A stretch of DNA of 64,000 bases from Candidatus Sulfotelmatobacter sp. (GTDB lineage: Bacteria > Vulcanimicrobiota > Vulcanimicrobiia > Vulcanimicrobiales > Vulcanimicrobiaceae), in the NCBI GenBank assembly GCA_035504415.1, contig DATJRY010000008.1, positions 1 through 64,000 of the forward strand, read 5' to 3'. The position numbers and the translations under genes are program-made. The notes beneath the pieces were generated by a model. That model worked only from the letters and a program-made list of their open reading frames with translations, was not told the origin of the DNA and ran no database searches. Each line of letters opens with the position of its first letter. The stretch's first letter is position 1. Positions 3,119-33,900 of this stretch are shown piece after piece.

Positions 3119-3156
3119 CGTCCTCGTGCGGGTGGAGAAGGGCGAGTTGGAGGCGT

Positions 3157-6057: not shown

Positions 6058-6108
6058 GGGCCGGCCCTCCTGGATGTGCGCGTCCACGCACGGTGAAGAC
6101 GTGATGTG

Positions 6109-6252
6109 AACGTTATATCGTACAGTGTACGAGATTTCGGTCAGCAGCCGTTCTCTCAACCCGTGCGCCGTCCTGCTTCACAAGCGGCGCATCGGTATGA
6201 TATGAGATTGTCCGAAGTGCGAAATATCGCGCCCTGTGCGATATAACGTACC
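6109..6252. promoter_or_regulatory. Symmetric divergent promoter region with palindromes
   Basis: Between the TonB receptor (minus) and dgcN (plus). The 11-mer ACGTTATATCG at 6110-6120 and its exact reverse complement CGATATAACGT at 6240-6250 place a TATAAC-like -10 on each strand facing outward. A perfect 15-base palindrome, TCGTACAGTGTACGA, lies at 6118-6132 overlapping the minus-strand copy, and an imperfect palindrome (GCGAAATATCGC) sits at 6220-6231. The layout suggests both transcription units answer to one regulator; the XRE-cupin gene at 8402 is a local candidate. No convincing -35 was found. Confidence 0.5.
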
Positions 6253-6279
6253 GCCGCCGCAGCGCCTCCCTGGGAGCCC

Positions 6280-13643: not shown

Positions 13644-14495
13644 GTGCAGTCGCCTACGGTTCGCCGTGCGTTTCGCGACGACGGCTTGCAGAGCCGTTTT
13701 GACGCGGCCGGTTTCGTGATCATTCCATGTCTGGACGCGAACCGGGTCGCACGGTTGCGGGCGGCGTACGACGCCGCCGACACGAAGATCATCAATCGCG
13801 CCTTCTCGGCGAGCCTGATGAGCGACGAGCCGGAATACCGCGCGCGCGTCAACACCGCGATCTTCGAGGCGTGTACCGAGCCGCTTGCCGAGATCCTCGA
13901 CGATTACCGGATCTCATACGTGCAGTTCTTCACCAAACGGTCGGGCACCGCGCACACCCTGCCGCTGCACCAAGACCCGACGTTCTTGGACGAGAGCCGC
14001 TTCGAGTCGCTCAACTTCTGGATCCCGCTGGTCGACGTGTCGCCCGCGAACTCGTGTTTGCGCGTCGTACCCGGCAGCCACCGGCTCAACCGGCAGCTGC
14101 GCTCGCAGCTCCCGCGTTTTCCGTACCCCGAGCTGGTCGAGGTGATCGAGCGGCGCTTCCTGTACGACTGCACGATGCCGGCCGGATATGCGTGCGTGAT
14201 GAGCGCGCGACTCATCCACGGCTCGCACGCCAACATGACGCCCCACCACCGGATGGCGGCCTCGGCCGTGGCCGTCCCGGTCGAGAGCGACGCGTACTAC
14301 ATCTTTCAGCGCCGGGAAAAGGGCCCGTTCGAAGCGTACGCGGTCGCCCCTGACTTTCACCGCACGCACCCCTTCGGCACGCCGCCGCCGGATTCGATGG
14401 TGCCGTTCCTCGAGTGCCCGTACGCGTTCGATCCGATCGACGAGGGCGCACTCGAACGCGTCGTCGCCGAGGCGGGGTTGGCGACCGCCGTTTGA
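13644..14495 (+). CDS. Phytanoyl-CoA dioxygenase (PhyH) family oxygenase 1
   Basis: 283 residues, Fe(II)/2-oxoglutarate oxygenase. GTG 13644 follows GTGTGAAGG. The facial triad is visible: H109-Q-D111 in LPLHQDPTF and H192 in RLIHGSHAN, with the 2-oxoglutarate-binding Arg expected in HHRMAAS. LNFWIPLVDVSPANSCLRVV and PGSHRLN are standard PhyH blocks. It is the first gene of a 12-gene same-strand run that continues to 24124, and a paralogue follows directly. The substrate is unknown; the operon context (two tiny precursor peptides, radical SAM enzyme) suggests a tailoring hydroxylase on a peptide or on a small lipid-like moiety. Confidence 0.88.
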   Translation: MQSPTVRRAFRDDGLQSRFDAAGFVIIPCLDANRVARLRAAYDAADTKIINRAFSASLMSDEPEYRARVNTAIFEACTEPLAEILDDYRISYVQFFTKRSGTAHTLPLHQDPTFLDESRFESLNFWIPLVDVSPANSCLRVVPGSHRLNRQLRSQLPRFPYPELVEVIERRFLYDCTMPAGYACVMSARLIHGSHANMTPHHRMAASAVAVPVESDAYYIFQRREKGPFEAYAVAPDFHRTHPFGTPPPDSMVPFLECPYAFDPIDEGALERVVAEAGLATAV

Positions 14496-14500
14496 TCGCG

Positions 14501-15337
14501 ATGTCGATGTTCCGCGATCCGCAAGTTCAACGCGCGTACGACCGCACCGGGTACGCGGTGGTGCCGTTTCTCGACGGGGACGAGGTCGAGCGGCTGAACC
14601 GGACTTGGGCGGCCCTCGACGAGGCGGTCCACGCGCGGCCCTTCTCCGCCAGCATCATGAGCGGCGACCCGGCGTACCGCCGGGCCGTCAACGAGGCGAT
14701 CGGCGAGGTGTTCGCGCGACGTCTCAACGAGATCATGATCGACTATCGATTCAGCTTCGGGAGCTTCGTCGCGAAGCTCGCCGGCAGCACGGGCCGGCTG
14801 CCGGTGCACCAAGACCCGCAATTCGTCGAGGAGCCGCGCCACGAAGCCGTCAACTTCTGGGTACCGCTGGTCGACGTCGACACGCGAAACGCGTGTTTGC
14901 GCGTGATGCCCGGCAGCCACCGCCTCAATCGCGGGCCGCGCGGCACCTCGCGCGCGTTCCCCTATCCCGACTTGATCGAGCTGGTCGAAGCGCAGTACCT
15001 GGTCGACGTGCCGATGCGCGCCGGCGAAGCGTGTCTGACGAGCCACCGCACGTTCCACGGCTCCGGCCCTAACCTGGCCGCGCAGCACCGCGTCGTCGCC
15101 GCGGCGATCGTCGTGCCCGCCGACGCCGAGATGCGCTACCTCTATCAGGGCGCGGGCACGCCGCCCGGCACGATCGACGTGTTCGCGGTCGACGACGGCT
15201 TCTTCCGGCGCCACGTCTTCGGCGCCCCGCCGCCCGGCCTGCCGCTGCTCGAGCGGATTCCGGCGCGGGTCGATCCGTTGACCCGCGAACAGCTTGCACG
15301 CGCCTTCGCCGATTCGACCGCGCGGGCACTGGTATGA
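14501..15337 (+). CDS. Phytanoyl-CoA dioxygenase (PhyH) family oxygenase 2
   Basis: 278 residues from ATG 14501 (TTG 14492, overlapping the previous stop, is the alternative; neither has a clear RBS). Paralogue of the preceding gene over its whole length: LPVHQDPQF holds H103 and D105, NFWVPLVDVDTRNACLRVMP and PGSHRLN align block by block, and H186 is in TFHGSG. All iron ligands are present, so both copies should be active. The last four bases overlap the next start (ATGA). Two tandem PhyH enzymes could act on two positions of one substrate or on two substrates; the operon also has two precursors and two JmjC enzymes. Confidence 0.87.
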   Translation: MSMFRDPQVQRAYDRTGYAVVPFLDGDEVERLNRTWAALDEAVHARPFSASIMSGDPAYRRAVNEAIGEVFARRLNEIMIDYRFSFGSFVAKLAGSTGRLPVHQDPQFVEEPRHEAVNFWVPLVDVDTRNACLRVMPGSHRLNRGPRGTSRAFPYPDLIELVEAQYLVDVPMRAGEACLTSHRTFHGSGPNLAAQHRVVAAAIVVPADAEMRYLYQGAGTPPGTIDVFAVDDGFFRRHVFGAPPPGLPLLERIPARVDPLTREQLARAFADSTARALV

Positions 15338-16251
15338 CGGCGTCGGCCGAGCGCGCGTTGGCCGACGGGACGCGGTTCCTGCTGGAGATGCAAGCGCCCG
15401 CGGGGTGCTGGCGCGACTTCGAGGTCGATCGCGCCGACGAGTCCGACGCCTGGGTCACCGGATACGTCGGGACCGCGCTGGCCGCCGTCGCCGCGGCAAC
15501 GGGTTGGGATCTCGGCGGCGCGGTCGCCGCCGCGCGTGCCTTCCTCCTCTGCGCCGCGGCAGAACGGCCGGGCTGGGGCTTCAACGGCGACGCGCCGCCC
15601 GACGCGGACTCGACGGCGTGGGCGACGCTGATGTTGGCTGCCAGCGGCGGCGCACCGGCGTTGGCGTACGGCGCGCTGCGCACGCATCGACGCCCGGACG
15701 GTGGCTTCTCGACCTACGTGCGCTTCTCCGATCCCTCGATGTGGGAGCAGAGCCAGGCCGACGTCTCGGCGGCCGCGCTGCAAGCGCTGGCGCAGGAGCG
15801 GGGCGCCGATCGGGCCGACCTCGCGGCGACCGGCGACTACCTGCGCGCGGCCCAGCGCCCCGACGGGTCCTGGCCGTCGTATTGGTACGCGACGCCGCTG
15901 TATGCGCTCGTGCACGCCCTGCACGCGCTGGCTGCGAGTGACGCGTCCGCCGCCGGCGCGCCCGCCGCCGCCGCGTTGTCGTTCGCGCGCGCGCAAGGCG
16001 TGCCGGACGACGACGCGTTCGCGCTGGCGCTCCTGGCGGAGCTCGAGGCGTGCTTCGGCGACGGCCGCGCCGGCCAGCTGCGCGACGCGTTGATCGCCTT
16101 GCAGCGCGCGGACGGGCGGTGGACCGCCGGCCGCCCGTTCATGCGCCCCGACCCATGGAAGTACGCGCCCGGGGACCCCGATGCCGCGATCGTCGACAAA
16201 TACGGGCTCTTCACGACCGCGACGGTGCTGCGGGCGCTGTGCCGTGCCTGA
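15334..16251 (+). CDS. Alpha-toroid protein, prenyltransferase/squalene-oxidase repeat type
   Basis: 305 residues made of alpha-alpha repeats with QW-like ends: GCWRDFEVDRADESDAWVTG, RPDGGFSTYV, RPDGSWPSYWY and RADGRWTAG. It resembles half of a class II terpene cyclase / squalene-hopene cyclase barrel. D90-A-D92-S-T94 sits where such enzymes carry their catalytic DxD(D/T), in the motif PDADSTAWATLML, but the exact DxDD acid is not present, so activity is open. Starts by a 4-base overlap with the PhyH gene and overlaps the next gene by 8. With a class I synthase-fold gene directly after it and another at 23222, a terpene-like chemistry inside this operon is possible; a scaffold or peptide-binding role is the other option. 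Confidence 0.78.
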   Translation: MTASAERALADGTRFLLEMQAPAGCWRDFEVDRADESDAWVTGYVGTALAAVAAATGWDLGGAVAAARAFLLCAAAERPGWGFNGDAPPDADSTAWATLMLAASGGAPALAYGALRTHRRPDGGFSTYVRFSDPSMWEQSQADVSAAALQALAQERGADRADLAATGDYLRAAQRPDGSWPSYWYATPLYALVHALHALAASDASAAGAPAAAALSFARAQGVPDDDAFALALLAELEACFGDGRAGQLRDALIALQRADGRWTAGRPFMRPDPWKYAPGDPDAAIVDKYGLFTTATVLRALCRA

Positions 16252-17143
16252 CGTCGAGGAGCAAACGCTGCGCGCGCTCGCGCGGCGAACGGAGAACGAC
16301 GAGCTGGCCCGCCAGGCCGATTGGCCGGCGCGCGTGCAATTGCGCGCGCCCGAGCGCGAGAAGACGTTCGCCGCCCTGCCGTACGCCTTCGCCGGTGCTT
16401 TTCGTCCGATCGACGCCGAGGCGCTGCGCGCGCTGGCGCTGGTGTGCAAGCTGCTGCGCGGAGCGGAGTCGCTGGTGGACGCGCCGCCGGCCGCCTCCGA
16501 GCGCCTCGCCGATCCGACGCTGCGCGTCTTCGCGGCGCAGAACGAGGCGCTGACCGCCCTGGCGCGGCTCGGCCCGGCGCCCGCGGTCTGGACGGCCGTC
16601 CACACGGCCCAGACGCGCCTCGCCCACGCGCTCTGCGCCGAAGAGGCGTACCGTAGCGGGCGGCGGCCGCTGATGGAGCTCAGCGACGACGAGGCGAGTG
16701 GGTACGCCGCCGCGCGCGGCGGCGCAATCCGCGTCGCTCTGGCCGGCGTGGCCGCGTTCGCCGGCGAGGCGCCGCCCGCGGGGTTGGCGACGTCGGTCGA
16801 GCGGTATTGCGAGGCGCGTCAAGTGGCGAGCGATCTCGCGGGCTGGCGCGCGGATCTCGATGCCGGCCGCCCGACGATGGTGCTGGCGCGCCTGGCGCGC
16901 GCGGCGCCGGACGCGTTCCGCGCCGCCCCGTCTGCTCGTCCCCAGGCGCTTGCCCGCGCGTTGTTCGCGGGCGGCGTCGCCGCCGACGTCGCGGGTTTGG
17001 TGGCCGCGCGCGCCGACGAGGCGCTGGCGGAGGCGGCGGCGTTCCCGCGCGCGCGGCCGTGGGCGGGGATCGTCGAGCTCGTGGCTCGGCCCGCGCGCGC
17101 GTTGTTCGCCGAGCTCGCCGAGACGGTCGCGGTGACGGGATGA
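16244..17143 (+). CDS. Class I isoprenoid-synthase-like helical protein (degenerate)
   Basis: 299 residues from GTG 16244. All-helical. The late block YCEARQVASDLAGWRADLDAG lines up with FVANQMVDDLRDWREDIRDG of the gene at 23222, so the two are distant paralogues. Here the first Asp-rich motif is not recognisable and the second has lost an Asp (ASDLAGW instead of VDDLRDW), so metal-diphosphate chemistry is doubtful. The start overlaps the toroid gene by 8 bases and the end overlaps the next gene by 4, indicating tight coupling. It may be a non-catalytic partner of the toroid or of the intact paralogue. Family call is by local motif and helix pattern only. Confidence 0.6.
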   Translation: MPDVEEQTLRALARRTENDELARQADWPARVQLRAPEREKTFAALPYAFAGAFRPIDAEALRALALVCKLLRGAESLVDAPPAASERLADPTLRVFAAQNEALTALARLGPAPAVWTAVHTAQTRLAHALCAEEAYRSGRRPLMELSDDEASGYAAARGGAIRVALAGVAAFAGEAPPAGLATSVERYCEARQVASDLAGWRADLDAGRPTMVLARLARAAPDAFRAAPSARPQALARALFAGGVAADVAGLVAARADEALAEAAAFPRARPWAGIVELVARPARALFAELAETVAVTG

Positions 17144-18030
17144 GTCCGCTCGCGACGGTTGGGGCGGGCTGTTGGCGCTGGATCGCCGCCAACGTCGACG
17201 ACTTCCTGGTGCGGCCCGGCGACGACGTGCCGACGCGCTCGGCGCGGATCGTCGCATTCGCCGAGTTGCTCATCTTCACGACCGCGTCGCTGCGGGTGGG
17301 CGGCGGCTCGGCCGTGCCGCCCGCGATCGTGCGCGCCGCGCGCGACTGGCTGCCCGCCTTCGACTGGGAGTCGCAGTTGATCCGCGATCCCGGCTTCCTG
17401 GTCGCGATCGCGACCGTCGTCGAGTTCCTCGACGCGTGCGGAGGCGACGCCGCGCCGTATCGCGCTCTGGTACGAGCGGCGCTCGCGCGCGGGATCGTCG
17501 AGCGGCTGCAGCTGCGCCCGTATCGCGAAGCCGAGCTCGACCGGCTGTTGGTGCGCAGCGGCTTTCGCCGCTACGACGCGGCGGCGTTCGCGGCGTGCGT
17601 GCGGCGCGCGTTTCGCGCGCTCGACGTGCCGCTGCCGGGTTACGCCGTCGCCGATCTCTTCGCGCTCTCCCATTTGGTGTGTTACGTGTGCGACGACGGC
17701 GAACGCGCGGCACACGACGTGGTCGGCACGGAGGGCGAGGCGCGACTGCGCTGGCTCGTGAGCTGCGCCGGCCGAATCGCCCTGATCGACGGCGACCTCG
17801 ATTTGGCGGCGGAGTTCGTGCTGTGCGAGCGCTACTTGGGCGGGTTCGATCCGGCCTTGACACGGGAGGCGATCCGACGCGCGGCGGCCGAGCAAGAGCC
17901 GACGGGTGCCGTCGTGGCGCCCGATCCCGGCGGCATGCGCTCACCCTTCGTGCGCCGCTATCACTCCTCGCTGCTGTGGGCGTATGCGAGCCTGCTGGTG
18001 CGGCAAGGCCGCACGCCGATGGCGGCGTGA
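17140..18030 (+). CDS. Helical protein of unknown function in RiPP operon
   Basis: 296 residues, ATG 17140 overlapping the previous stop (ATGA). All-helical, no signal peptide or membrane helix. Notable segments: RIVAFAELLIFTTASLRVGG, the YREAELDRLLVRSGF repeat-like helix pair, and YAVADLFALSHLVCYVCDDG, a Y-x-L-(S/T)-H-x-x-x-Y pattern that I associate loosely with the DUF6895-type proteins; I cannot verify that here. Late RYHSSLLWAYASLLV resembles the last helix of toroid proteins, so it may be another member of the same helical-barrel superfamily as its neighbours. Function unknown. Confidence 0.6.
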   Translation: MSPLATVGAGCWRWIAANVDDFLVRPGDDVPTRSARIVAFAELLIFTTASLRVGGGSAVPPAIVRAARDWLPAFDWESQLIRDPGFLVAIATVVEFLDACGGDAAPYRALVRAALARGIVERLQLRPYREAELDRLLVRSGFRRYDAAAFAACVRRAFRALDVPLPGYAVADLFALSHLVCYVCDDGERAAHDVVGTEGEARLRWLVSCAGRIALIDGDLDLAAEFVLCERYLGGFDPALTREAIRRAAAEQEPTGAVVAPDPGGMRSPFVRRYHSSLLWAYASLLVRQGRTPMAA

Positions 18031-18827
18031 GCGTGATCGAGCTCGTCGCGCCGACCGGATCGCTCGACGACGCGTTCGCGCGGGCGGCTGCCTGGCTACG
18101 CGCGCTCGGCGACGAGCTCGATGGGGCCGCCGCGCCGAGCGCGGCCCTGTGGCTCGCGCTCGGCGCGGCGCTGTGCGATGATCGCATGACGGCGAACGCG
18201 ATGCTGGCGCGCGCGGAGGCGGGCGCCGGCGCCGATCGCTCCCCCGGCGACGTGCTCGCGGCGGCACTCGCGTTCGCGCTGGCGGACCGCAGGCCGAGCG
18301 CGGCGATGCGCGCGCTGCTGCTCCGCGGCGCGGGGGCGACGCCGGCGCGCCGTAGCGCGGTCGGCATGCTGCTCGGCGTGGGCGGCGCCGCGCCCGTGCG
18401 GCTTCGGTCCGCCGAGGCGGCCGCGGTCCTGCTCGGCGGCGGGCCGGCGGCGAGCGTCGCCGACGTCGCCGACGCCCTGGAAGCCTTCGGCGCCGATGAC
18501 GACGCGCTCGCGTCCGCGGCGTTCGCACGCGGTTTCGCCGAGCTGCGCGGACACCGCGCCTTCACGCTGGGGACGAGCCTGTTGCGGGGCGCCCTCGCGC
18601 TCCGTGGCGACGCGATCGGCGCGGGCTACGTGACGGCCTACGTGCTCGGGCAGCAGCGCCTCGACGGTGCGTTCGGCCATTTGCCGCCGCGGGCCCCGCA
18701 GGTCGGCGACATTCGGCTCGCGTTCCACCTGCCGCGCACCGTGCGCAGTCTGTGGACGTTGCGCGACGCGAGCGCCGGTTTTGCAATCGTGGCGCGGGAG
18801 GTGGCACGTGCCGGTCGTGCAGTCTGA
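18027..18827 (+). CDS. Alpha-repeat protein of unknown function in RiPP operon
   Basis: 266 residues from GTG 18027 (GTGA overlap); GTG 18033 is possible. Very Ala-rich, all-helical. The C-terminal part, VLGQQRLDGAFGHLPPRAPQ followed by RLAFHLPRTVRSLWTLRDA, has the GQQ-x3-GAFG turn typical of alpha-toroid QW-like repeats, so I think it is a second, more diverged toroid half. If so, this and the 15334 product could form a two-domain barrel as in class II cyclases, though no acid motif is seen. Ends by overlapping the JmjC gene start by 20 bases. Confidence 0.6.
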   Translation: MSVIELVAPTGSLDDAFARAAAWLRALGDELDGAAAPSAALWLALGAALCDDRMTANAMLARAEAGAGADRSPGDVLAAALAFALADRRPSAAMRALLLRGAGATPARRSAVGMLLGVGGAAPVRLRSAEAAAVLLGGGPAASVADVADALEAFGADDDALASAAFARGFAELRGHRAFTLGTSLLRGALALRGDAIGAGYVTAYVLGQQRLDGAFGHLPPRAPQVGDIRLAFHLPRTVRSLWTLRDASAGFAIVAREVARAGRAV

Positions 18828-20007
18828 GCCGGCCGCGCCGCCGCGGGGCTGGGTCGAGGCGCTCGACGAGGAGTTCTTCGCCCACGCCTTCGAGCGGCGA
18901 CCGTACGTCGCGCGCGGCGTGCACGCCGGCGACCTCGACGAGCTCGTCGCGCTCGACACGCTCGAGTATCTGCTGATCTCGCCGCCGGGTGCCCAGTTCT
19001 CGTACGTACGACTGGGCAAAGTCTTGCCGGACGGAACGTGGGACGTCACCAAGCTCGCCGCCGACCTCAGCCTGGCACGCTTGGTGCAGGGGTACCGCGA
19101 CGGATACTCGATCCTGGTCGACGAGGCACAGGCGCGCTGGCCCTCGCTCGCGGCGCAGTGCGCGGCGCTGCAGGAACGGATCGCGCGCCGCGGCGGCGTC
19201 ATCGCTCACAACCGCGCGACCTGCGGGCTGTTCCTGACCCCGCCCCGCGCGCAGGGCAGCGCGCCGCATTACGATTGCAAGGACGTGTTCGCAGTGCAGG
19301 TCGCCGGGTCGAAGACGTGGCGGCTGCACGCGCCGCCCGTCGAGGCGCCGCTGCACAACAGCGCCGACGGCGAGATCGACGCCCCCCGGCTCGGCGAGCC
19401 GGTGCTCGAAGTGACGCTCGGACCCGGCGATCTGTTGTACGTTCCGCGCGGCTTCGTCCACGCGCCGCTCACCCGCGACGAGCGTTCGCTGCACCTCTCG
19501 TTCGGCGTCGCGACGATCACCTGGACCGAGATTCTCCGGCCGATGCTCGAGGCGCGCGCGGAGCTGCGCCAGAGCGTTCCGGCGCGCTTGCTCGAGCCCG
19601 GTGCGGAGGAGGCGCTGCGCGGCGCGCTCGCCTCATTGCTCGCGGCGCTCGACGACGCGCCCGAAGCGGCGCAGCGGCTGCGACTGCTGGCGCTCGCGAG
19701 TCTCGTCGGCGAGACGCAGGTTGCCGCGGGCCGGCTCGCCGACGCCACGGCGGAGCGCAGCGAGGAGCTCGACGACGACGTCGCGCTCGAGAAGCGGTAC
19801 GGCGCGCGGTGTTTGGTCGACCGCACCGGTCGAGAGTTGGCACTGGCGTTTCCGGGCCGCCTCCTGGGTGTGCCTCTCGCGTGGCAGCCCGCGGTCGAAC
19901 GCGTGATCGCTTCCGACCGGGTGACGGTCGGTGAGGTCGGCCGCGACGTCGCGGCGCACCTGCTGGACGCCGGCTTCCTGCGACGAGCCCGGCCAAATGG
20001 AGCTTGA
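18808..20007 (+). CDS. JmjC/cupin_4-type Fe(II)/2OG oxygenase 1
   Basis: 399 residues from GTG 18808, which follows CGGGAGG. Same build as ribosomal oxygenases (RoxA/cupin_4): an N-terminal helical part with FERRPYVARGVHAGD, the JmjC barrel with H154-Y-D156 in SAPHYDCKD and distal H218 in RGFVHAPLT, LYVPRGF before it, and a C-terminal helical dimerisation region plus winged-helix-like tail (KRYGARCLVDRTGRELAL). Such enzymes hydroxylate protein side chains (Arg, His) in other systems. In this operon the likely target is one of the small peptides at 21667/21841. A full-length paralogue lies on the other side of the precursor genes. Confidence 0.87.
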   Translation: MPVVQSEPAAPPRGWVEALDEEFFAHAFERRPYVARGVHAGDLDELVALDTLEYLLISPPGAQFSYVRLGKVLPDGTWDVTKLAADLSLARLVQGYRDGYSILVDEAQARWPSLAAQCAALQERIARRGGVIAHNRATCGLFLTPPRAQGSAPHYDCKDVFAVQVAGSKTWRLHAPPVEAPLHNSADGEIDAPRLGEPVLEVTLGPGDLLYVPRGFVHAPLTRDERSLHLSFGVATITWTEILRPMLEARAELRQSVPARLLEPGAEEALRGALASLLAALDDAPEAAQRLRLLALASLVGETQVAAGRLADATAERSEELDDDVALEKRYGARCLVDRTGRELALAFPGRLLGVPLAWQPAVERVIASDRVTVGEVGRDVAAHLLDAGFLRRARPNGA

Positions 20008-20064
20008 CTTGTCGACATGCATATGCAAACGTAAGGCCGACGACCGTTTGGCCAAGGGTGTGGT

Positions 20065-21585
20065 GTGAGCTCATTAGTAGTTGCGCAGGTCCGAACGAGC
20101 AATTACACGGTGTACGTCGATCTGCCCGACGATCGTGCGCACGTGTTGTTGGTGCACGGGTACAGCGGAGCGTTCGACAAGGTACCCGCGTCCGTCGCGT
20201 CCTATCTGCGGTCGCTCGACGAGCGTCCGCCGAAGCCGCTCTACGGCGATTGGACGGATACCGGAAACAACGGCGACGCTGAGGCGACGCGGCCGTCGGA
20301 CGAGCTGCTGGCACTGCTGACGAAGCGCGGGTATCTCACCTCGCTGACGCGGGCCGAGGAGCGCGCGCGCTTCGACCGTTTGGTCCAAATGCGCCACGAG
20401 AAATGGTCGGCGTTGCCGCCCGCGTACACGCTGATGCCGACGTACGACTGCAACTTGCGCTGCGGGTACTGCTTCCAGGACCACATGCGCACCGACGCGC
20501 GCTACGAGCACCTGCTGCGCTTCATGACGCCGCAAGTCGTCGACCGTATCGTCGCCGCGATGCCGGCCATCGAGGAGCGCCACGGGCTCACGCAGCCCGG
20601 GGCGCCGCGCAACGTCATGTTCTTCGGGGGCGAGCCGCTGCTCGCGCGCAGCCGGCCGCTCATCGACTATCTCATGGCCGCGATCCGTCGCGCGGGCCCG
20701 GCGACGTTCACGGCGGTCTCGAACGGGACGCAGCTGGACGCCTACGAGGATGTGCTCGGCCCCGAGGGCATCACGGTGCTGCAGATCACCATCGACGGCA
20801 CCCCGGAGTTGCACGATACGCGCCGCGTCCACGCGGACGGGACAGGGTCGTTCGCGGCGATCGCGCGCAACATCGATCTCGCGCTCGGCCGCGGCGCGAA
20901 GATCGACGTCCGCATGAACGTCGATCGCAGCAACGTGGACGTGCTGCCGCGTCTGGCCTCGCTCTTCGAAGAGCGCGGCTGGTTCCGCGATGCCGGCTTT
21001 TCCGCCTACGTCGCGCCGGTGCACGGCACCAAAGGCAACCTCGAGCGGAAGACCACCTTCAACTCGCACGAGCTCGGCGTGACGATCAACGCGATGAAGC
21101 GCGAGCACCCACAGCTGGGCAAGTTCGACCTTCCCGACGACGACTTGGCCCGGAACCTGCGTTCGCTCTTCCGCGAGCACGGCGACGCGCTCCCGCAGAT
21201 GAAGGCCGCCTACTGCGGGGCCCACACCAGCATGTACGTCATCGATCCCTTCGGCGACATCTACGCGTGCTGGGAGCGAACCGGCGACAAGAACCTGCGG
21301 GTCGGCTGGATCGAGGCGGACGGAACGCCGCAGTTCGTCGCCGACCGGCTCGCGACGTGGCGCAAGCGCAACGTCAGCAGCAACGAGACGTGCGGGCAGT
21401 GCCGCTACTCGATGTATTGCGGCGGCGGCTGCGCCGTGCTGGCCGAGGACGTGCACGGCACGATCTTCGGCAACTACTGCGATGCCTTCGGGCGCCGTTT
21501 TCGCGAGACGGTCGGTCGCGCGTACGGCGAACGCCACCTCGCGAACACCGTCGACGAGAGGGTCGCGAGCCTACGCGCGCTGTGA
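20065..21585 (+). CDS. Radical SAM/SPASM peptide maturase
   Basis: 506 residues from GTG 20065. The N-terminal about 115 residues (YTVYVDLPDDRAHVLLVHGY, then LLALLTKRGYLTSL) look like a peptide-recognition or lid region as in other RiPP radical SAM enzymes. Radical SAM cluster: C129-x3-C133-x2-C136 in CNLRCGYC; SAM site FFGGEPLL. SPASM domain cysteines: C384, C402, C443, C446, C452, C456 and C472, the full seven-Cys set, so two auxiliary Fe-S clusters are expected. It ends 81 bases before the first precursor gene. Likely reaction: cross-linking or epimerising residues in the conserved GYYCYGD core; which one cannot be told from sequence. Confidence 0.92.
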   Translation: MSSLVVAQVRTSNYTVYVDLPDDRAHVLLVHGYSGAFDKVPASVASYLRSLDERPPKPLYGDWTDTGNNGDAEATRPSDELLALLTKRGYLTSLTRAEERARFDRLVQMRHEKWSALPPAYTLMPTYDCNLRCGYCFQDHMRTDARYEHLLRFMTPQVVDRIVAAMPAIEERHGLTQPGAPRNVMFFGGEPLLARSRPLIDYLMAAIRRAGPATFTAVSNGTQLDAYEDVLGPEGITVLQITIDGTPELHDTRRVHADGTGSFAAIARNIDLALGRGAKIDVRMNVDRSNVDVLPRLASLFEERGWFRDAGFSAYVAPVHGTKGNLERKTTFNSHELGVTINAMKREHPQLGKFDLPDDDLARNLRSLFREHGDALPQMKAAYCGAHTSMYVIDPFGDIYACWERTGDKNLRVGWIEADGTPQFVADRLATWRKRNVSSNETCGQCRYSMYCGGGCAVLAEDVHGTIFGNYCDAFGRRFRETVGRAYGERHLANTVDERVASLRAL

Positions 21586-21666
21586 GCGCGCTGCAGTCTT
21601 CCAAGGCCGGGTGACGGCGGATGCGTTCGCGCATCCCAACCAAACTAACGCAAGTCAGGAGAAACG

Positions 21667-21786
21667 ATGGAAGATAAAATCGAGAAACTGACCACGGAGG
21701 AGGTCGACGTCGAAGCGCTGGAAGCGCGCCTCGAGCTGCTCGACCCAGGGATGACCCCAGGTTACTACTGCTACGGTGACGGCTGA
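21667..21786 (+). CDS. RiPP precursor peptide 1 (GYYCYGDG core)
   Basis: 39 codons, ATG 21667 with CAGGAG upstream. Acidic leader: MEDKIEKLTTEE followed by VDVEALEARLEL (residues 13-24), then a Pro/Gly-containing spacer and the C-terminal GYYCYGDG (32-39). A second copy follows at 21841. Leader block 13-24 and core 32-38 are identical between the two, while 8 of these 19 codons differ silently, so the protein sequence is under selection. The size, acidic helical leader, short aromatic C-terminus and radical SAM neighbour are the marks of a RiPP precursor. Y36-G37-D38 fits the aromatic-x-polar spacing of three-residue cyclophanes; C35 could be a thioether donor. Confidence 0.85.
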   Translation: MEDKIEKLTTEEVDVEALEARLELLDPGMTPGYYCYGDG

Positions 21787-21810
21787 TCGCCGTAACCGAT
21801 AGCCGCTTCT

Positions 21811-21824
21811 TCACTCGCGAGTGA
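21811..21824. promoter_or_regulatory. Perfect 14-base palindrome between the precursor genes
   Basis: TCACTCGCGAGTGA, fully self-complementary, in the 54-base gap between the two precursor genes. It could be an operator or an mRNA stem (5 bp with a CGCG loop) that tunes expression of the second peptide. No U-tract follows, so it is not an intrinsic terminator. Confidence 0.4.
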
Positions 21825-21840
21825 TCGAAAGGATATCACC

Positions 21841-21960
21841 ATGGAAGACAACGTGGAACGGCTGAGTTCGGACGACGTCGACGTGGAAGCCCTCGAAGCG
21901 CGTCTCGAATTGATCCAGCCGTCGCTGAGCGACGGGTACTACTGCTACGGCGACAACTGA
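21841..21960 (+). CDS. RiPP precursor peptide 2 (GYYCYGDN core)
   Basis: 39 codons, ATG 21841 with GAAAGGA upstream. Starts MEDNVERLSSDD, then the same VDVEALEARLEL leader block and a core GYYCYGDN, differing from peptide 1 in the last residue (Asn for Gly). Overall 25 of 39 positions are identical, with leader changes mostly conservative (T/S, E/D, K/R, I/V, M/L). It ends 45 bases before the second JmjC gene. The two peptides probably share one set of enzymes; the terminal G/N difference and the spacer (LLDPGMTP versus LIQPSLSD) may give two related products. Confidence 0.85.
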   Translation: MEDNVERLSSDDVDVEALEARLELIQPSLSDGYYCYGDN

Positions 21961-22005
21961 GCGTCAGCCGAGTCTGAACGCTTTGCTCGATTAGGTCCTG
22001 CGCCC

Positions 22006-23235
22006 GTGATCCGGCCTTGGAAGAGTCAAAACCTCGCGCAGGTGTGGCGCGAAGCGCTCGACGACGCCTTTTTTTCGGACGCCTTCGAGCGCAAGCCGGT
22101 CCTCGTTCGGGGTGCCTACGTCGATCGTGAACCGGCGATCACGCTCGACGATCTCGAGCGCCTGCTCATCTGCCCACCGGGCGCGCGATTCTCGGACGTG
22201 CGCGTCTCGCGCGTGGGCGCCGACGGCCGCGTCGACGCGCAGTCGATGCCGCCGGACTTCAAGCTTGCGACCGTGCTCGAACGCTACCGGGCCGGCTATT
22301 CGGTCATGCTCGATCAGATCAACTACCGCTGGCCGCCGATCTACGCACTGTGCATGGCCCTACAAGAGCGGTTGGCGGCGGCGGCGCCGTCGATCATGCG
22401 CGGCCGCGCCACCTGCTCGGCGTTCCTCACCCCGCCCCACGCTCAGGGGCATCCGCGTCACTACGATCGTGACGACGCATACGCGCTGCAGGTCGAGGGA
22501 CGCAAGACCTGGCGCTTCTGGGCTCCCGTTCGCGAGGCGCCGCTGCACAATAGTTCGCAGGAGGCCGTCGACCTGACCGCGCTGGGAGAACCGGACTACG
22601 AGTTCGTGCTCGAGCCGGGCGACGTACTGTATTTCCCACGCGGGTTCGTCCACGAACCGTTCACCGGCGATCTGCACTCGCTGCACCTGAGCTTCGGCGT
22701 CATCCCGGTGAACTGGAGCCAGTTGCTGGGCGAGATGCTCGAGTCCCACCCGGCCTTCCGACGTTCGGTGCCGCGCGCGTTCCTCGCCGAGGACGGCGCC
22801 GAGTTGCTCCGCGCGGACCTTTCCGCCATGCTCGCGCTGCTCGACGATCCGCAGGCCGTGCGCGCATGGATCGCGCGCGCGCGCCGCTCGCAGCTGGAGG
22901 GCGAAAATCAGACCGCCGCCGGGCGCCTGGCCGAGGCCGCGTCGGCGGCCGGCGCGCGGGGACCCGGAAGCGCCCGCGATTCCGTCCTCACGAAGCGGTA
23001 CGGCGCGCGTTACCATGTCGAGCCCAGCGACGGAATGCACGCGCTGGCGTTCCCCGGGATGTCGATCCGTATCCCGAGCGGGTGCAGCGCAGCGCTCGAG
23101 GTAATGCTGCGCACCGTGCGCTTCACTGCCGAAGACGTGCGGGCCGGCCTGAGCGATCACGATCTCGACGCGCTGATCTCCCAGTTGCTCGACGCGGGAT
23201 TCCTGTGCGTGGTCGGCGACGATGGCGAAACCTAG
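22006..23235 (+). CDS. JmjC/cupin_4-type Fe(II)/2OG oxygenase 2
   Basis: 409 residues from GTG 22006. Full-length paralogue of the 18808 product: FERKPVLVRGAYVD at the N-terminus, the JmjC barrel with H152-Y-D154 in PRHYDRDDAYALQ, LYFPRGFVHEP with distal H216, and the same C-terminal KRYGARYHVEPSDGMHALAFPG tail. Both copies keep all iron ligands. The two enzymes bracket the rSAM gene and the precursors, which suggests each acts on the peptides, perhaps at different positions. The start lies 45 bases after precursor 2; the end overlaps the next gene by 14 bases. Confidence 0.87.
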   Translation: MIRPWKSQNLAQVWREALDDAFFSDAFERKPVLVRGAYVDREPAITLDDLERLLICPPGARFSDVRVSRVGADGRVDAQSMPPDFKLATVLERYRAGYSVMLDQINYRWPPIYALCMALQERLAAAAPSIMRGRATCSAFLTPPHAQGHPRHYDRDDAYALQVEGRKTWRFWAPVREAPLHNSSQEAVDLTALGEPDYEFVLEPGDVLYFPRGFVHEPFTGDLHSLHLSFGVIPVNWSQLLGEMLESHPAFRRSVPRAFLAEDGAELLRADLSAMLALLDDPQAVRAWIARARRSQLEGENQTAAGRLAEAASAAGARGPGSARDSVLTKRYGARYHVEPSDGMHALAFPGMSIRIPSGCSAALEVMLRTVRFTAEDVRAGLSDHDLDALISQLLDAGFLCVVGDDGET

Positions 23236-24124
23236 CGCCGGCGTCATCGCGGTCCTCGACGAGCACGTCGCGCGCTGGCGAGGTCGTTTGCCGGTCTTCG
23301 CCGGCGGCGCGTTCGACGAGCGGGCGACGATCACCGAGCTCCCGCAGCGAGTCGCGGAGATCTATCCGCCGGTCCCACGGCGCCGCCTCGACGAGTTGAC
23401 GGTCGCGCTGAGCCTCTTCAGCGACGCGATCGTCGCCTGTGACGACATCATGGACTACGCGCGCGAGCGCCCCGAGGAGACGCGGCGCCTTCCGCGCATC
23501 GGGGTGCTCTTCGCCCAAACGTATCGGACGTTCGCCGAGCTGCTCGGCCCGGCGCCGCACTTCTGGAACCGCCTCGAGCGGTATTACGCCGACTTCGTGG
23601 ATGCGATGGATGCCGAGGTTCGCTACGCGACCGGTGCGACGCCCTGGTCTGCCTGCTCCGAGGAAGAGTGCCTAGCGATCGAGCGCGGCAAGAACGGCTT
23701 GGTGCGCCTGGTCGACGCGAGCGTCGCGGCGCTGGCGGGGAACGATCGCGCGGAAGACGGCGCGGCGGAGTCGATGCTCGACCTGTTCGTCGCGAACCAG
23801 ATGGTCGACGATCTGCGCGACTGGCGCGAAGACATTCGCGACGGCGCGCTTTCGCTCGTCTTGCTGCGGGCGGCGGGCGGCACGAAGCCCGCGCCGGACG
23901 CCGCGCGCGAGCTCGGCGCCCGTATCTATCTCGACGGCCACGCGGCCCACGTGCTCGCCGTCGCCGACGCGCACTGCCGTCGCGCGCTCGAGCACGCGCG
24001 GGCGCTCGGCGGCGAGGCGCTCGCCGCGTCGGCCCTCGGGTACCAACGGCGCATCGGCGAGTTGCGCGAGCGCCTCGACCGCGAGGTCGACGCGCTGCGC
24101 GCCGGTCTCAGCGTCCCTCGCTGA
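23222..24124 (+). CDS. Class I isoprenoid synthase-fold enzyme with intact Asp-rich motifs
   Basis: 300 residues, all-helical. ATG 23222 overlaps the preceding gene. D74-D-I-M-D78 is a textbook DDxxD first Asp-rich motif and NQMVDDLRDWREDIRDG (D196, D197, D200) resembles the second metal site of trans-prenyl synthases/terpene synthases, so Mg2+-diphosphate binding is plausible. Paralogue of the degenerate 16244 product. It closes the operon and converges with the ABC exporter gene (17-base overlap of the ends). Possible roles: making a prenyl donor or terpene that is joined to the peptide, or peptide prenylation; a non-isoprenoid role is also possible because related helical proteins lack clear assignments. 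Confidence 0.72.
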   Translation: MAKPSAGVIAVLDEHVARWRGRLPVFAGGAFDERATITELPQRVAEIYPPVPRRRLDELTVALSLFSDAIVACDDIMDYARERPEETRRLPRIGVLFAQTYRTFAELLGPAPHFWNRLERYYADFVDAMDAEVRYATGATPWSACSEEECLAIERGKNGLVRLVDASVAALAGNDRAEDGAAESMLDLFVANQMVDDLRDWREDIRDGALSLVLLRAAGGTKPAPDAARELGARIYLDGHAAHVLAVADAHCRRALEHARALGGEALAASALGYQRRIGELRERLDREVDALRAGLSVPR

Positions 24125-26168
24125 ACGCGTCCATGCCGAGCGTGCCGAAGCGCAGCGCCGCGGCGTACGTTCCGTCGATCGCGACCAGTTCGTCGTGCGT
24201 TCCTTGCTCGACGATGCGGCCCTCGCGCATGACGAAGATGCGATCGGCGTTACGGATAGTCGAGAGCCGGTGAGCGATGATAATCGTGGTCGTGCGCTGG
24301 AGCGTGCCGCGCAGGTCGCGAAAGAAGCGCGCCTCGGTTTCGTTGTCGACCGCCGAGGTCGCCTCGTCCAGCACCAAGATGCGCGGCCGCTTAACCAGGG
24401 CGCGCGCGATCGAAAGCCGTTGCCGCTGGCCGCCCGAGAGCGTGGTGCCGCGCTCGCCCACGACGGTGTCGAGGCCGTCGTGCTCGGCGGCGATGAAGTC
24501 GGTCGCCTGGGCGACGGCGATCGCCGCTTCGAGCTGCTGGTCGTCGGCGCCGGGCGCGCCGAAGAGGACGTTGTCTCGGATCGTCCCGGCGAAGACGTAC
24601 GGTTCCTGGCTGACCAACCCGATAGCGCCGCGAAGGTCGGCGACGCGCAGCGCGTCGATCGGCGTCTCGTCGACGGTGATCCGGCCCTCGTAGCCTGCGT
24701 AAAAGCGCATCAAGAGCTTGGCCAGCGTCGTCTTGCCCGAGCCGGTCGGGCCGACGATCGCGACCGTGCTGCCGGCCGGAATGCGCATCGAGAAGTCCTC
24801 GAGTACCGCCTGATCCGGCTCGTAGCCGAAGGTGACGTGCTCGAAGGCGATGTCGCCCTGCATCGTGCCCAGATCGAGCGGTTCGGTGCCGCCGTCGTCC
24901 TCGAGCGGAACGTCGAGCAGCGCGTAAACGCGACCGATCGCGCCGAGGCTGCTCTGCATGCGCTCGAGCTCCGGCGCCAGCCCCATCAGGGGATAGAGCA
25001 GCTGACCAGTCATCATCATCATCGAGGCGAACGCGCCCGGGCTCAGCTCGCCGGCGGCGACGAAGCCGCGTGCCGCGAGCAAGGTGGTGATCGTGCCCCC
25101 CATCACGATGAACTCGAGAACCGGCGAGAACAGCAGCGCGACGGACGCGGCGTCCTCTTTTGCCGCGCGTACGTTCTCGGAGGCGGCCGACACGAGGGCC
25201 AGCTCGCGCGCCTCGGCGGAAAAGCTCTTGATCGTCGCGATGCCTTCCACGTCAGCGGTGATCCGCGCGCCGAGCTGCGCCGATCGCGCGCCCGTGCGCG
25301 CCAGCCGCGGCTTGAGGCGTCGCTGCAGCTCCTCGACCGCTAGGCCGACGAACGGGATCGGCAACAACGCGAAGAGCGCGATCTTGGGCGCCATGACCGC
25401 CAGCGCGAGGCCGACGACCGTCGCCGTCGAGGCGATGCGGAGAATCTCGTATGAGGCGTTGAATGCGGTCGCGACCTGGTTCACGTCGTCTCCGACCACG
25501 GCCAGCACGCGGCCCGCGTTCGCGCGCTCGAAGTAGCGCAGGGCCAGCCGCTCGACGTGCGCGAACGCCTCGCGCCGCAACTGGTGCTCGTAGGCCACCG
25601 CGACGCGCCGCCAGCGCAGGCGGCCGCGATAGTCGAGGAACGCCTGGACTGCGGTGATGGCGAGTCCGCCGATAGTGAGGACGGCGAACGCGAACGGACT
25701 GGCCGAAAGCGTCCAGATGCCGAAGAAGCTGGCGCTCCCGCTGACGACCAGATCGATCGCCATGCGCACGACCGCGAAGCGCGAGAGTGAGGCGATCATT
25801 GCCAGCACCGTGTCGACCGCCGAGCGCGTGAGCTCGCGCCGATAGGGCTGCAGCTGCTCTATGAGGCGCGCGGTCGTCCCCGTCCCGATCCGCGGTGCTG
25901 CGGCGGGTACCGCCGCCGCGGGCGCGTGCTCGGGAAGCCGGGCGAAGACGTCGTTGACCAGGCGGCGGAACCTCGCCTCGAACGCGCTGGACTCGAGTTC
26001 CGGGTCGTAGACGACCAGGACGCGGCCGGTTACGGCGTTGGCGCGCCCGTCCCATACCTGGGGTTCGTCCCGGAGCGCGAGCACGAGAGCCTCGGCGGCG
26101 TCGTCTCGTCCTTCGAGCCCCGCGACTTCCCAGCGTTCACGGCCCGGAATAGCGGACCGCCGGTGCAC
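24108..26168 (-). CDS. ABC exporter, fused permease-ATPase with N-terminal HMA-like domain
   Basis: 686 residues. Residues about 1-65 (IPGRERWEVAGLEG, RANAVTGRVLVVYDP) match the HMA_2-type ferredoxin-like domain that precedes some bacterial ABC and P-type transporters, though no CxxC is present. Then a six-helix permease (about 110-400) and an ATPase with Walker A GPTGSGKTT, signature LSGGQRQR, Walker B ILVLDEATSAVD and the H-loop IIIAHRLSTI. GTG start at 26168, ten bases after the DUF5132 gene, so those two form an operon. It converges on the RiPP operon and may export the product, but the HMA/DUF5132 pairing occurs elsewhere without RiPP genes, so the link is open. Confidence 0.88.
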   Translation of the reverse strand: MHRRSAIPGRERWEVAGLEGRDDAAEALVLALRDEPQVWDGRANAVTGRVLVVYDPELESSAFEARFRRLVNDVFARLPEHAPAAAVPAAAPRIGTGTTARLIEQLQPYRRELTRSAVDTVLAMIASLSRFAVVRMAIDLVVSGSASFFGIWTLSASPFAFAVLTIGGLAITAVQAFLDYRGRLRWRRVAVAYEHQLRREAFAHVERLALRYFERANAGRVLAVVGDDVNQVATAFNASYEILRIASTATVVGLALAVMAPKIALFALLPIPFVGLAVEELQRRLKPRLARTGARSAQLGARITADVEGIATIKSFSAEARELALVSAASENVRAAKEDAASVALLFSPVLEFIVMGGTITTLLAARGFVAAGELSPGAFASMMMMTGQLLYPLMGLAPELERMQSSLGAIGRVYALLDVPLEDDGGTEPLDLGTMQGDIAFEHVTFGYEPDQAVLEDFSMRIPAGSTVAIVGPTGSGKTTLAKLLMRFYAGYEGRITVDETPIDALRVADLRGAIGLVSQEPYVFAGTIRDNVLFGAPGADDQQLEAAIAVAQATDFIAAEHDGLDTVVGERGTTLSGGQRQRLSIARALVKRPRILVLDEATSAVDNETEARFFRDLRGTLQRTTTIIIAHRLSTIRNADRIFVMREGRIVEQGTHDELVAIDGTYAAALRFGTLGMDAFSEGR

Positions 26169-30986: not shown

Positions 30987-33900
30987 TCAGAAAATTCCTT
31001 GCTCAATTTCGTTGTCGCGAAGCGAAGCGCGCTTCCGCTCCGCATCAAGATGCGATCGCAGCTCATCCTTCCAGATTTCGATGCGGGGGCTCCCAAACGT
31101 CGGCATGCCATCGACGAGTGCCATTCGCATCGCGTAGTAATCAGCCCCTGGCCCAACGCTTGCGAAGCTATGAATGTTTGCTTCCAGCGAACGAAGCACG
31201 TCGTCTCTTTCGCCAAAATTCTCAAGGAGCGCCATCATAAGCGGCGTGATGCGTAATGGCTCATCAGGCGAAGACTGGATCATCAGCCCGTATTGTGCAA
31301 GAAATGCCGGGACGTCATCAACGTAGTCGTGTCCAAAGGCGATTAGATCATCGATCGATCTACCTTCAACAGCGAGGCGATCATCGGCGAGAGAGAATGA
31401 ATCATGCTGCGTCGCGATGAGCAATCGCCACCTATCAGCTCGATCCAGCGACGCGTACCGTCTCTTGAACCGGTCCCACACGGTATCGTGGGCAAGGAGC
31501 ATCGGCCACAAATCAGCGACACGTCGACGCTCTGCAAAGCCTCCTTTGTCCGAAAGTGCCTCGGTCATAAGCTGCTCTCCGACGTCAGTGGCGAAGCGAA
31601 CGTTCGATTTGATCAGTCGCTTCGCGACCTCGAGCAAGCTCCATTCATGAACGTCGTCCAGAGGCTTCTTGAGAAAGCCACTCTGTACGATGACCGCTTC
31701 AAAAACATCGTCTAGACCCTCTCGATCCGAAACCCCGAACATCAGGAGATTGACGACGCTAGAGTACCAGCCGTGATCGAGGAAGACGGCGGCGAGGGCG
31801 CGCAACTGCTCCCGGTCAACGTGTGCATATGCGTTGCCCATGAAGAGGTTCCGTCGAGGAGGTGCCGTAAGGCGACGCTCCTTGTAGGCTTGAAGCAGAA
31901 GTTCTATGTCACGCGATTCCACGCGCGGCCACACGATGACAGCCGGCAATGCTTGAACCAGGTGATCGTCTTTTGAGATCCGTACCAGAACCGACCACCG
32001 GTAGTCCGGATCGGCTTCGCCGAGCGTTCCGACGATGCTCATTAGAGCGAGATCGTTCCGGGGTTCGGGTGCGTCTACGTAGGCAGCGAGTGCATCCTCC
32101 ACGAGCTGCTCCCGATCACCAGTGTGCTTTGCGGCGGCTTGCCCGTAACCATGCGGCAGTCGGTGCGACCAACCCGTGCTCACCACGTCGAGAACCGCAC
32201 GTACGCGGCCCGCTTCCGTCGTCTCACGCGCAAACCGGTCGACATTCTCAAGCGATCGATCGACGATACCGGATCCCGGGACCTCGTCAAGATCGAGCGG
32301 CGGATCCGTCACGTACAGAGTGATCTGTTCGAGAAGGTCCGTCGGCAGCAATGACTGCAGAATGCCGCGCGCCCGCTCGCGATCTGCGTCATTTTCGCAC
32401 ACATGGCGAATTGCCCATTTTAGCCGATCAACTGCCTTCGGCCAGGCTGGCCCGGCAAGCGATGTCGCTGCCCTTTCCAGATCATCCCAAAGGCGGTAGC
32501 GAGCGAGCAACGGGATTCCGTCTGCGATTACGTCGCGGGAAAGGGCGAACGCCTGTGGACCGCGAGAACTCAGTGTCAGGGCACGATCGACGGCAGCTCT
32601 AACATAATCAAAGATATCCTTCCATATCGTTGGGCACCACTCAATGAGAATAGGACGCCCGCCTTGAGATTCGACGCCCAGGACCACATAGTTCTGGTTT
32701 AGGGACAGCACGCGCCCGAGTGCCTCGGCGACCAGCGTATGGCTTCGAGAATCGGTGCGCTCCAACATTTCGTCGACAATCGCGATGCGCTCGTTTGGAT
32801 GCGCTTCGGTTTGAGATCCCTGCACGGCAAAGAACTTACTCAACGTCCCCGTAGCGTTGTTCGCATTCGAAGCATTCTCGTTACGAGCAAGCGCAAAAAT
32901 CAGACGCACCGCAGCTTTGAAGTGAGCAGCGTGAAAGGCAATGCCCTCGAGAGCCCACACCAGGTTCTGCCGTCCGCTCGGCTCATCGATGTCGCTGAGG
33001 TCCTCGTCGCTCAACGCCGAGAGCGCACGGGTCATCGCCTTGATCGCGGCGTCGGGGTTCACTTGCGCAAGTGATCGTAGCATCCTCGAATTCGTTGGGC
33101 CGAGAATACCGGCGAGGTTCCCGAACCGGCCGGACGGCGAAAGCAGTCCAGCAGCAAGTTCGAGTGAGGTGCCCGTCGTCACGTCGCCAAAACGTCGGGC
33201 AAGCGCTATCGTCAGGCTGTCGGGTAGCTCGGCGAAGAGTCGCTCCCGTGTTTCAGGCGCGACGTCGTCGAGCCAGCGCCGTGTAAGGCGAAGCGCCAGA
33301 GGTGGCGGCGTGACACGCCAGTAGCGACCAATGGCAACGATCAGACCCTTTCGTTCGAAGTTCTTCACGATGCGGTGGAAAGCGTCGCGTGAGACATTCG
33401 GTAGGAACGTTGCCCGCAATATTTCCCACTCCAATGCTACACGTTCGCTGTAACCGACGTGGTCAAAGAGGGCAAGGAGGGACAGGACGGCGTACTCGTC
33501 AGAATCATCGAAGTAGCCGATGAGTCGCTGGGTGATTTGGTCGTTCGTAAGATCAGTGATCATCACACTGTCATTGCTAATCGCCTTCAGTACGAGGATC
33601 GCCATTAATGGCCAACCTTGCGCATACTCGACGATCCGCAGAAAATTCGGGCCTGTAAGCTGAGGCTCAAGCCCTTTGACGATCCGCGTGATCGTCTCGG
33701 AGTTTGTCTGCCGAAGCGTTGCGTCGCCGCTTAGCTCGTGACGGTGGTCGATCGAAATGACCGAGAGGGCGCTACCCGCGATCGCTTGAGCAAGCTGCTG
33801 GTGAAGTTCGGCCTCACAATCGTCTACGACAATGGTTCCGCCAACACCGAGTCGACGCCAGTCGGGGATTGTACTCAGTAGCTGCAGGCCGCTGCCGGGG

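Follow-up and report, generated by a model that had tools for sequence, protein, structure and literature searches.

The window (the whole 64,000-nucleotide stretch of DNA analysed) contains a cassette of co-directional, mostly overlapping genes between 13644 and 24124, within which two short twin ORFs directly follow the gene of a radical SAM (rSAM)/SPASM peptide maturase (Table 1). The cassette opens with two PhyH oxygenases, a squalene-hopene cyclase (SHC)-like protein (hereafter C), a P-like paralogue, a DUF6895 protein, a protein lacking a Pfam match and JmjC hydroxylase A, and continues beyond the maturase and the twins with JmjC hydroxylase B and a trans-isoprenyl-diphosphate-synthase (trans-IDS)-like prenyltransferase (hereafter P). 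The ABC transporter at its far end is a possible exporter of uncertain membership in the cassette, and no leader peptidase was identified in the window cluster. Elsewhere in the window, the reverse strand (30987-34862) encodes a 1291-aa protein, KfrA-like in look at its N-terminus and followed by an NTPase-like-looking region.

Table 1. Predicted genes of the cassette and the adjoining transporter, in window coordinates
Feature	Coordinates	Strand	Evidence and remarks
PhyH-family Fe(II)/2OG oxygenase 1, first gene of the run	13644..14495	+	PF05721 6.5e-24; homologue in L002
PhyH-family Fe(II)/2OG oxygenase 2	14414..15337	+	PF05721 4.3e-21
Single-domain squalene-hopene/MstE-like type II terpene cyclase C, 305 aa	15334..16251	+	PF13243 8.8e-8; fused-partner alignment; Foldseek
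Second P-like protein, probably a non-catalytic paralogue	16181..17143	+	29% identity, E 1.1e-11 to P; SARM degenerate, RQVASDLAGW
DUF6895 protein	17140..18030	+	PF21836 5.6e-26; L028 homologue 4.1e-34
Protein without Pfam match	18033..18827	+	homologue kept in L028 (tblastn)
JmjC_2 hydroxylase A	18667..20007	+	PF08007 1.8e-25; 44% identical to B; true start probably near 18.8 kb
Radical SAM/SPASM peptide maturase with N-terminal RRE-like domain, 506 aa	20065..21585	+	PF04055 1.4e-12; TIGR04085 SPASM 1.2e-14
Precursor peptide 1, 39 aa	21667..21786	+	MEDKIEKLTTEEVDVEALEARLELLDPGMTPGYYCYGDG; leader block VDVEALEARLEL, core GYYCYGD-G
Precursor peptide 2, 39 aa	21841..21960	+	MEDNVERLSSDDVDVEALEARLELIQPSLSDGYYCYGDN; leader block VDVEALEARLEL, core GYYCYGD, last residue N
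JmjC_2 (ribosomal-oxygenase-like) Fe(II)/2OG hydroxylase B	22006..23235	+	PF08007 3.1e-26; HxD...H kept
Trans-IDS-like prenyltransferase P, 300 aa	23222..24124	+	motifs; fusion with cyclase domain in relatives; model/Foldseek
ABC transporter (fused permease/ATPase), MsbA-like	24108..26168	-	convergent with the cassette; weak HMA_2-like N-terminal stretch

Among the accessory genes, the DUF6895 protein is a clear member of its family (92 bits against a PF21836 cutoff of 23.8) and is present in both Vulcanimicrobiota clusters, and the protein encoded next to it is perhaps its partner. Another DUF6895 protein is the reported lasso-peptide epimerase (ACS Catal 2026, as cited in PMC13352647), with which it shares the Pfam family; no lasso machinery was seen in the window. 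Both JmjC proteins retain the HxD...H motif and have NO66/MINA53 and YcfD as nearest solved structures, in keeping with the JmjC_2/ROX type. The arrangement recalls biphenomycin biosynthesis, where the JmjC 2OG oxygenase BipG is encoded with RiPP precursors and hydroxylates Orn in a RiPP (PMC12707348), but the window has two JmjC copies and neither an MNIO nor a B12-rSAM. In the closest relative of the cluster (locus L002, same genus), a glycosyltransferase is present and JmjC is absent, so that JmjC hydroxylation would be a tailoring rather than a core step. JmjC was also considered as a marker of the system and rejected, as JmjC_2 relatives elsewhere in the phylum (34% or less) have no such precursors adjoining them. 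The same genome encodes a third JmjC_2 protein (contig C17, 137579-138439), 33% identical to JmjC B.

Twin precursors and a leader family spanning phyla

The first-pass annotation had described two 39-residue ORFs, each with its own ribosome-binding site, sharing the block VDVEALEARLEL and the core GYYCYGD and ending in G and N, respectively. Coordinates and translation bear this out exactly, and a plausible Shine-Dalgarno sequence precedes each start (GTCAGGAGAAACG-ATG and GAAAGGATATCACC-ATG). The ORFs are identical at 86/120 nt, having arisen by duplication. Counted over the whole ORFs including the stop, 15 codons are the same, 11 differ silently and 14 carry replacements, all 14 of the latter lying outside the shared segments. 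Within the 12-residue block and 7-residue core, in contrast, 8 of the 19 codons differ and all eight differences are silent, the very count from which selection on the protein had been proposed. No significant RNA fold was found in the three spacers around the twins, and the conservation is therefore one of protein; both shared segments are held by selection at that level. That the ORFs are untranslated or decaying gene copies is extremely improbable in view of the silent-only substitutions in conserved segments, the good ribosome-binding sites and the cross-phylum conservation described below, and none of our results points that way.

When about 85,000 genomes of bacteria and archaea were scanned, relatives of the maturase came to light at 23 loci in five phyla (47-61% identical), namely Vulcanimicrobiota/Eremiobacterota, Cyanobacteriota, Myxococcota, Acidobacteriota and an actinomycete MAG; none were found in viral contigs. 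The clade is rare, since 386 cyanobacterial genomes held only two members, both already known; in the window's own phylum the enzyme occurs in 3/149 genomes. Two further loci, L057 and L061, were reached via prenyltransferase-cyclase searches and as a second copy in one genome. Nearly all relatives adjoin small ORFs that carry one leader motif, EIESLN..DVxxLExRLE[LM]A, which is common to all these groups and has VDVEALEARLEL as its local form, the predicted leader helix of the twins reading [D/T]VxxLExRLE[LM] as in rSAM-linked precursors of other phyla. The check proposed in the first-pass annotation, a profile search of small ORFs near SPASM genes, was strongly positive across phyla: a profile built from twelve precursors and searched against stop-to-stop ORFs of the rSAM loci reached E-values down to 1e-22, found leader-bearing ORFs beside the maturase at ten loci at E below 1e-6, and traced the leader block into four other phyla. 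In about ten more loci an EIESLN-type leader is recognisable by eye, two of them being cut by contig ends, whereas in L014 a Nif11-type precursor takes its place, and no precursor was found beside the maturase in L006 (contig end) or L012. The Nif11-type precursor of L014 lies upstream of the maturase gene and ends in GGFYYGSGRNCSQW. A looser leader pattern run against the small ORFs of the 64-kb window retrieved only the twins and one unrelated 76-aa ORF. Together, the recurrence of the block beside rSAM genes and this narrow result indicate conservation beyond chance. No curated family in NCBIfam or Pfam covers these precursors, only that of L019 resembling CefA.

Rather than keeping the enzyme without intact small ORFs, the situation named beforehand as telling against the pairing, L002 retains two intact precursors immediately downstream of its maturase gene, as in the window, ending PYYCGTNS and PYYCGSNSGGG, so that a [GP]YYCxx[DN]-type core is kept in all four peptides. 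Small ORFs beside a maturase, with a conserved leader and a variable core in several genomes, strongly support the reading of the twins as RiPP precursors, as does the recurrence of the leader beside homologous rSAM genes for the proposal that a SPASM enzyme serves them. A distinctly unlikely alternative is that the twins yield a two-component product acting together, rather than being duplicated precursors of one product family: tandem genes with different spacers and last residues would suit it, as would the pairs in L002 and L057, but the cores are identical except for that last residue, and the number of precursors per locus varies from one (L013, L007, L016) to three (L022, L061).

The clusters of the family differ in their other enzymes, combining M50 peptidases with MacB-type permeases, a glycosyltransferase with C39 exporters, or a 2OG oxygenase with a halogenase, as expected of a modular RiPP family. 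In L012 and L014, a 2OG-FeII_Oxy_5 oxygenase and a Trp halogenase follow the maturase, 1.6-3.8 kb past the start of the rSAM match, and the cyanobacterial clusters L003-L005 have double-Gly leaders and an EryCIII-like glycosyltransferase, with a peptidase-type ABC exporter also in L003 and L005.

The maturase and the C-x-x-Z spacing of its cores

In an alignment of 24 sequences, the CX3CX2C motif (residues 129-136) and the SPASM cysteines of the maturase are invariant, as befits an rSAM/SPASM enzyme. In an AF2 model based on this alignment (pLDDT 77.7), the N-terminus forms an RRE-type beta/helix domain, and the best PDB match is the thioether maturase CteB (5why/5wgg, ~500 columns), in line with a shared overall fold. 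The next structures are TigE (8vpo, cyclopropylglycine), sulfatase maturases and SuiB, so that fold alone does not fix the chemistry, and the match would suit cyclophane, cyclopropane or epimerase chemistry equally well. Scores against curated families are highest for PapB and CefB but low throughout (95-140 bits for the family against cutoffs of 340-600); for the window enzyme they are 126/600 for CefB, 125/340 for PapB and 119/525 for TIGR04463. No NCBIfam equivalog cutoff was reached by any of nine family members scanned, and the clade is therefore uncurated. Thus, the system shares with the ranthipeptide maturases (PapB NF047865, CefB NF038107, CteB/SCIFF) the rSAM/SPASM architecture, the N-terminal RRE-like domain and a Cys-containing core, but differs from PapB, CefB and SCIFF in its scores below cutoff, its own leader family and its C-x-x-Z spacing, and for the first of these reasons we do not file it in a curated ranthipeptide family.

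This spacing is the common feature of the cores. Following a small C+2 residue, the residue at C+3 is bulky for 94% of 52 Cys in 24 cores, against 42% in shuffles in which Cys positions were fixed and the other core residues permuted (0/2000 shuffles reach the observed value), the residue set having been chosen after looking at the data. The C+3 counts are N 13, F 10, K 9, D 4, R 3 and Y 3, besides others. Loci read later (L057, L061, L010, L014) follow the rule in 11/13 cases; these and L061 are the partly independent checks of the post hoc patterns reported here. Cores with a single Cys make the direction clear (CYGD, CGTN, CGSN, CIIN, CIID, CGVQ), and the rule (Z = N/F/K/D/R/Y) suggests an i,i+3 cross-link from Cys by the maturase, which would involve CYGD in the twins.

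Triceptides have an aromatic-X-X arrangement. YYC and YGD present the same arrangement, and cyclophane-forming families are numerous among SPASM maturases, so one may ask whether the enzyme instead forms a triceptide-like C-C cross-link on Tyr, e.g. in Y-C-Y or Y-G-D, leaving the Cys free or otherwise used. Conservation of [GP]YYC in all four Vulcanimicrobiota peptides would fit as well. Across the family, however, aromatics are not constant (CGVQVG, CIIDF, CIVRCFIR, CCTGK), while Cys and a bulky C+3 residue are, and the thioether enzymes CteB and PapB/CefB head the structural matches and family scores, respectively; we consider a cyclophane unlikely, and retain the i,i+3 thioether as the preferred product of the maturase. 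Splicease-type tyramine excision at Y-G was considered and rejected, since L002 (YYCGTN) and most of the family lack YG.

A prenyltransferase/terpene-cyclase module tied to the precursors

P has the FARM motif CDDIMD and the SARM motif NQMVDDLRDW, the latter preceded by the Gln of peptide/Trp prenyltransferases; a 2026 review (PMC13290415) treats a Gln directly before the second Asp motif as the mark of peptide Trp prenyltransferases. The first Asp motif varies, and C carries PDADST in place of DXDD, its counterparts being PDADD in L013/L048 and PADSD in L023. While P and C are separate genes in the window and in L002, they form one protein in L013, L016, L023, L048, L049, L057 and L061, from Cyanobacteriota, Acidobacteriota and Vulcanimicrobiota (702 aa in the cyanobacterium L013, 649 aa in the acidobacterium L023). 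When a model of the fusion was searched with Foldseek, its C-terminal half hit type II cyclases (SHC-type, drimenyl-diphosphate synthase and MstE), and its N-terminal half gave weaker matches to GGPP synthases and the Trp prenyltransferase Ord1.

Whole-genome searches with P or P-C led back to this rSAM in the window, L002, L007 (a cyclase fragment), L013, L023, L057 and L061, and in L048/L049 to a two-gene pair lacking the rSAM, with an upstream precursor-like ORF containing DIAELQARL. The exception was L062 (Hyalangium), where P-C lies on another contig and no precursor of the twins' leader family was found. In L013, L023, L057 and L061, P-C directly follows the precursors, of which L057 has two and L061 three in tandem. 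The three of L061 (5022-5624) have AWGSCC/AAWSCC cores and stand directly before the fused gene (5641-7761). The L048/L049 cassettes (5125-7669 and 1834-4298, respectively), from two other Vulcanimicrobiota genera, consist of a 126-141 aa ORF followed by fused P-C, the small ORF closing with DIAELQARL...SEWPDVTIVIFQ(K)A, in which the leader motif recurs together with a Trp core. On the rSAM tree, P-C is scattered (five changes, pointing to repeated gain or loss) and yet tracks the core aromatics: clusters with P-C have W or Y close to the first Cys in 7/7 cases, against 2/12 for those without, a correlation chosen after looking (Fisher p 0.0007, post hoc), L061 having been found after the idea was noted. 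L004 and L019 run counter to it, having an aromatic beside the Cys but no P-C.

These observations bear on whether P and C act on the peptide at all. Both have the folds of genuine isoprenoid enzymes, and lipids can be substrates of PhyH oxygenases, which would agree with a free terpenoid made beside an ordinary rSAM RiPP by chance or through joint regulation, the peptide not being prenylated. We judge this improbable given the position of P-C directly after precursors in several phyla, the blind recovery of P/P-C in linkage with this rSAM or a leader-bearing ORF, the Gln-SARM signature of peptide/Trp prenyltransferases, the repeated gain or loss that nonetheless follows core aromatics, and the P-C type RiPP maturases reported in the review PMC13290415. 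CaaX-like prenylation of the Cys (as on CIIDW-type ends) was also rejected, as four residues follow the Cys here and FTase-type zinc ligands were not noted. Prenylation of a core aromatic by P, with cyclisation by C, is the reading we carry forward.

The closest known parallel is offered by ChrPC and NctPC (Hubrich et al. 2024, via PMC13290415), which that review presents as RiPP maturases joining prenyltransferase and cyclase domains in one protein (the cyclase domain being MstE-like in NctPC); they prenylate Trp and cyclise the chain. As far as this description goes, they share with our system a trans-IDS-like P (ChrPC), an MstE-like C and peptide substrates, with the same domain fusion in relatives L013, L023, L048, L049, L057 and L061; in the window, by contrast, P and C are separate genes, the core offers Tyr instead of Trp, and a thioether-type rSAM/SPASM enzyme, DUF6895 and JmjC are added. 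In ComQ/ComX and PalQ, too, a trans-IDS-fold enzyme prenylates an aromatic residue of a peptide (as predicted here) and has the Gln before the SARM (PMC13290415), but these systems have Trp acceptors, no terpene cyclase partner and no rSAM. According to PMC13290415, Trp is the target of every trans-IDS-like prenyltransferase so far characterised. Trp is indeed present in the cores of L013, L016, L023, L061 and L048/L049, whereas none occurs in the cores of the window (GYYCYGDG/GYYCYGDN), L002 or L057, where the residue is Tyr. This sets these clusters apart from all characterised trans-IDS-like enzymes that the review names, and with no Trp in the core we do not file P among the Trp prenyltransferases.

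Proposed pathway and implications

Our favoured reading, held with moderate confidence, is that the twins are the two precursors of a RiPP cluster (13644-24124) whose pathway combines a thioether ring with an isoprenoid on Tyr. In the pathway we infer, the leader would bind the N-terminal RRE-like domain of the rSAM/SPASM enzyme, which would link the core Cys to the third residue after it and so close a thioether ring of four residues, C-Y-G-D. P would then attach an isoprenoid to the aromatic beside the Cys, here Tyr replacing the usual Trp, and the MstE-like C would cyclise the isoprenoid chain. Epimerisation of a residue may be the task of the DUF6895 protein, and hydroxylation of the peptide or the terpene that of the JmjC and PhyH oxygenases. 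Finally, the leader would be cut off and the product would leave the cell, the neighbouring ABC transporter being a possible exporter; the two near-identical cores would yield two products that differ in their last residue. The prenyltransferase/cyclase, epimerase-family and oxygenase genes, as well as the C-x-x-Z rule, go beyond the first-pass annotation.

A more specific proposal, which we put forward tentatively and regard as doubtful, is that an i,i+3 Cys-Asp thioether and a cyclised isoprenoid on Tyr would share a single core of seven residues, alongside hydroxylation and perhaps a D-residue, P then being the first Tyr-using trans-IDS-like enzyme. We found no published description of a thioether ring combined with an isoprenoid, ChrPC and NctPC having been compared through the review PMC13290415 alone.

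The cross-phylum leader family and the uncurated rSAM clade come with a simple, directly testable core rule, C-x-x-Z, and the rSAM module repeatedly combines with a prenyltransferase/terpene-cyclase module. If the proposed chemistry is correct, an almost uncultured phylum would make peptides bearing both a small thioether ring and a polycyclic terpene, and the cluster would provide a system for studying how a Trp prenyltransferase switched to Tyr.
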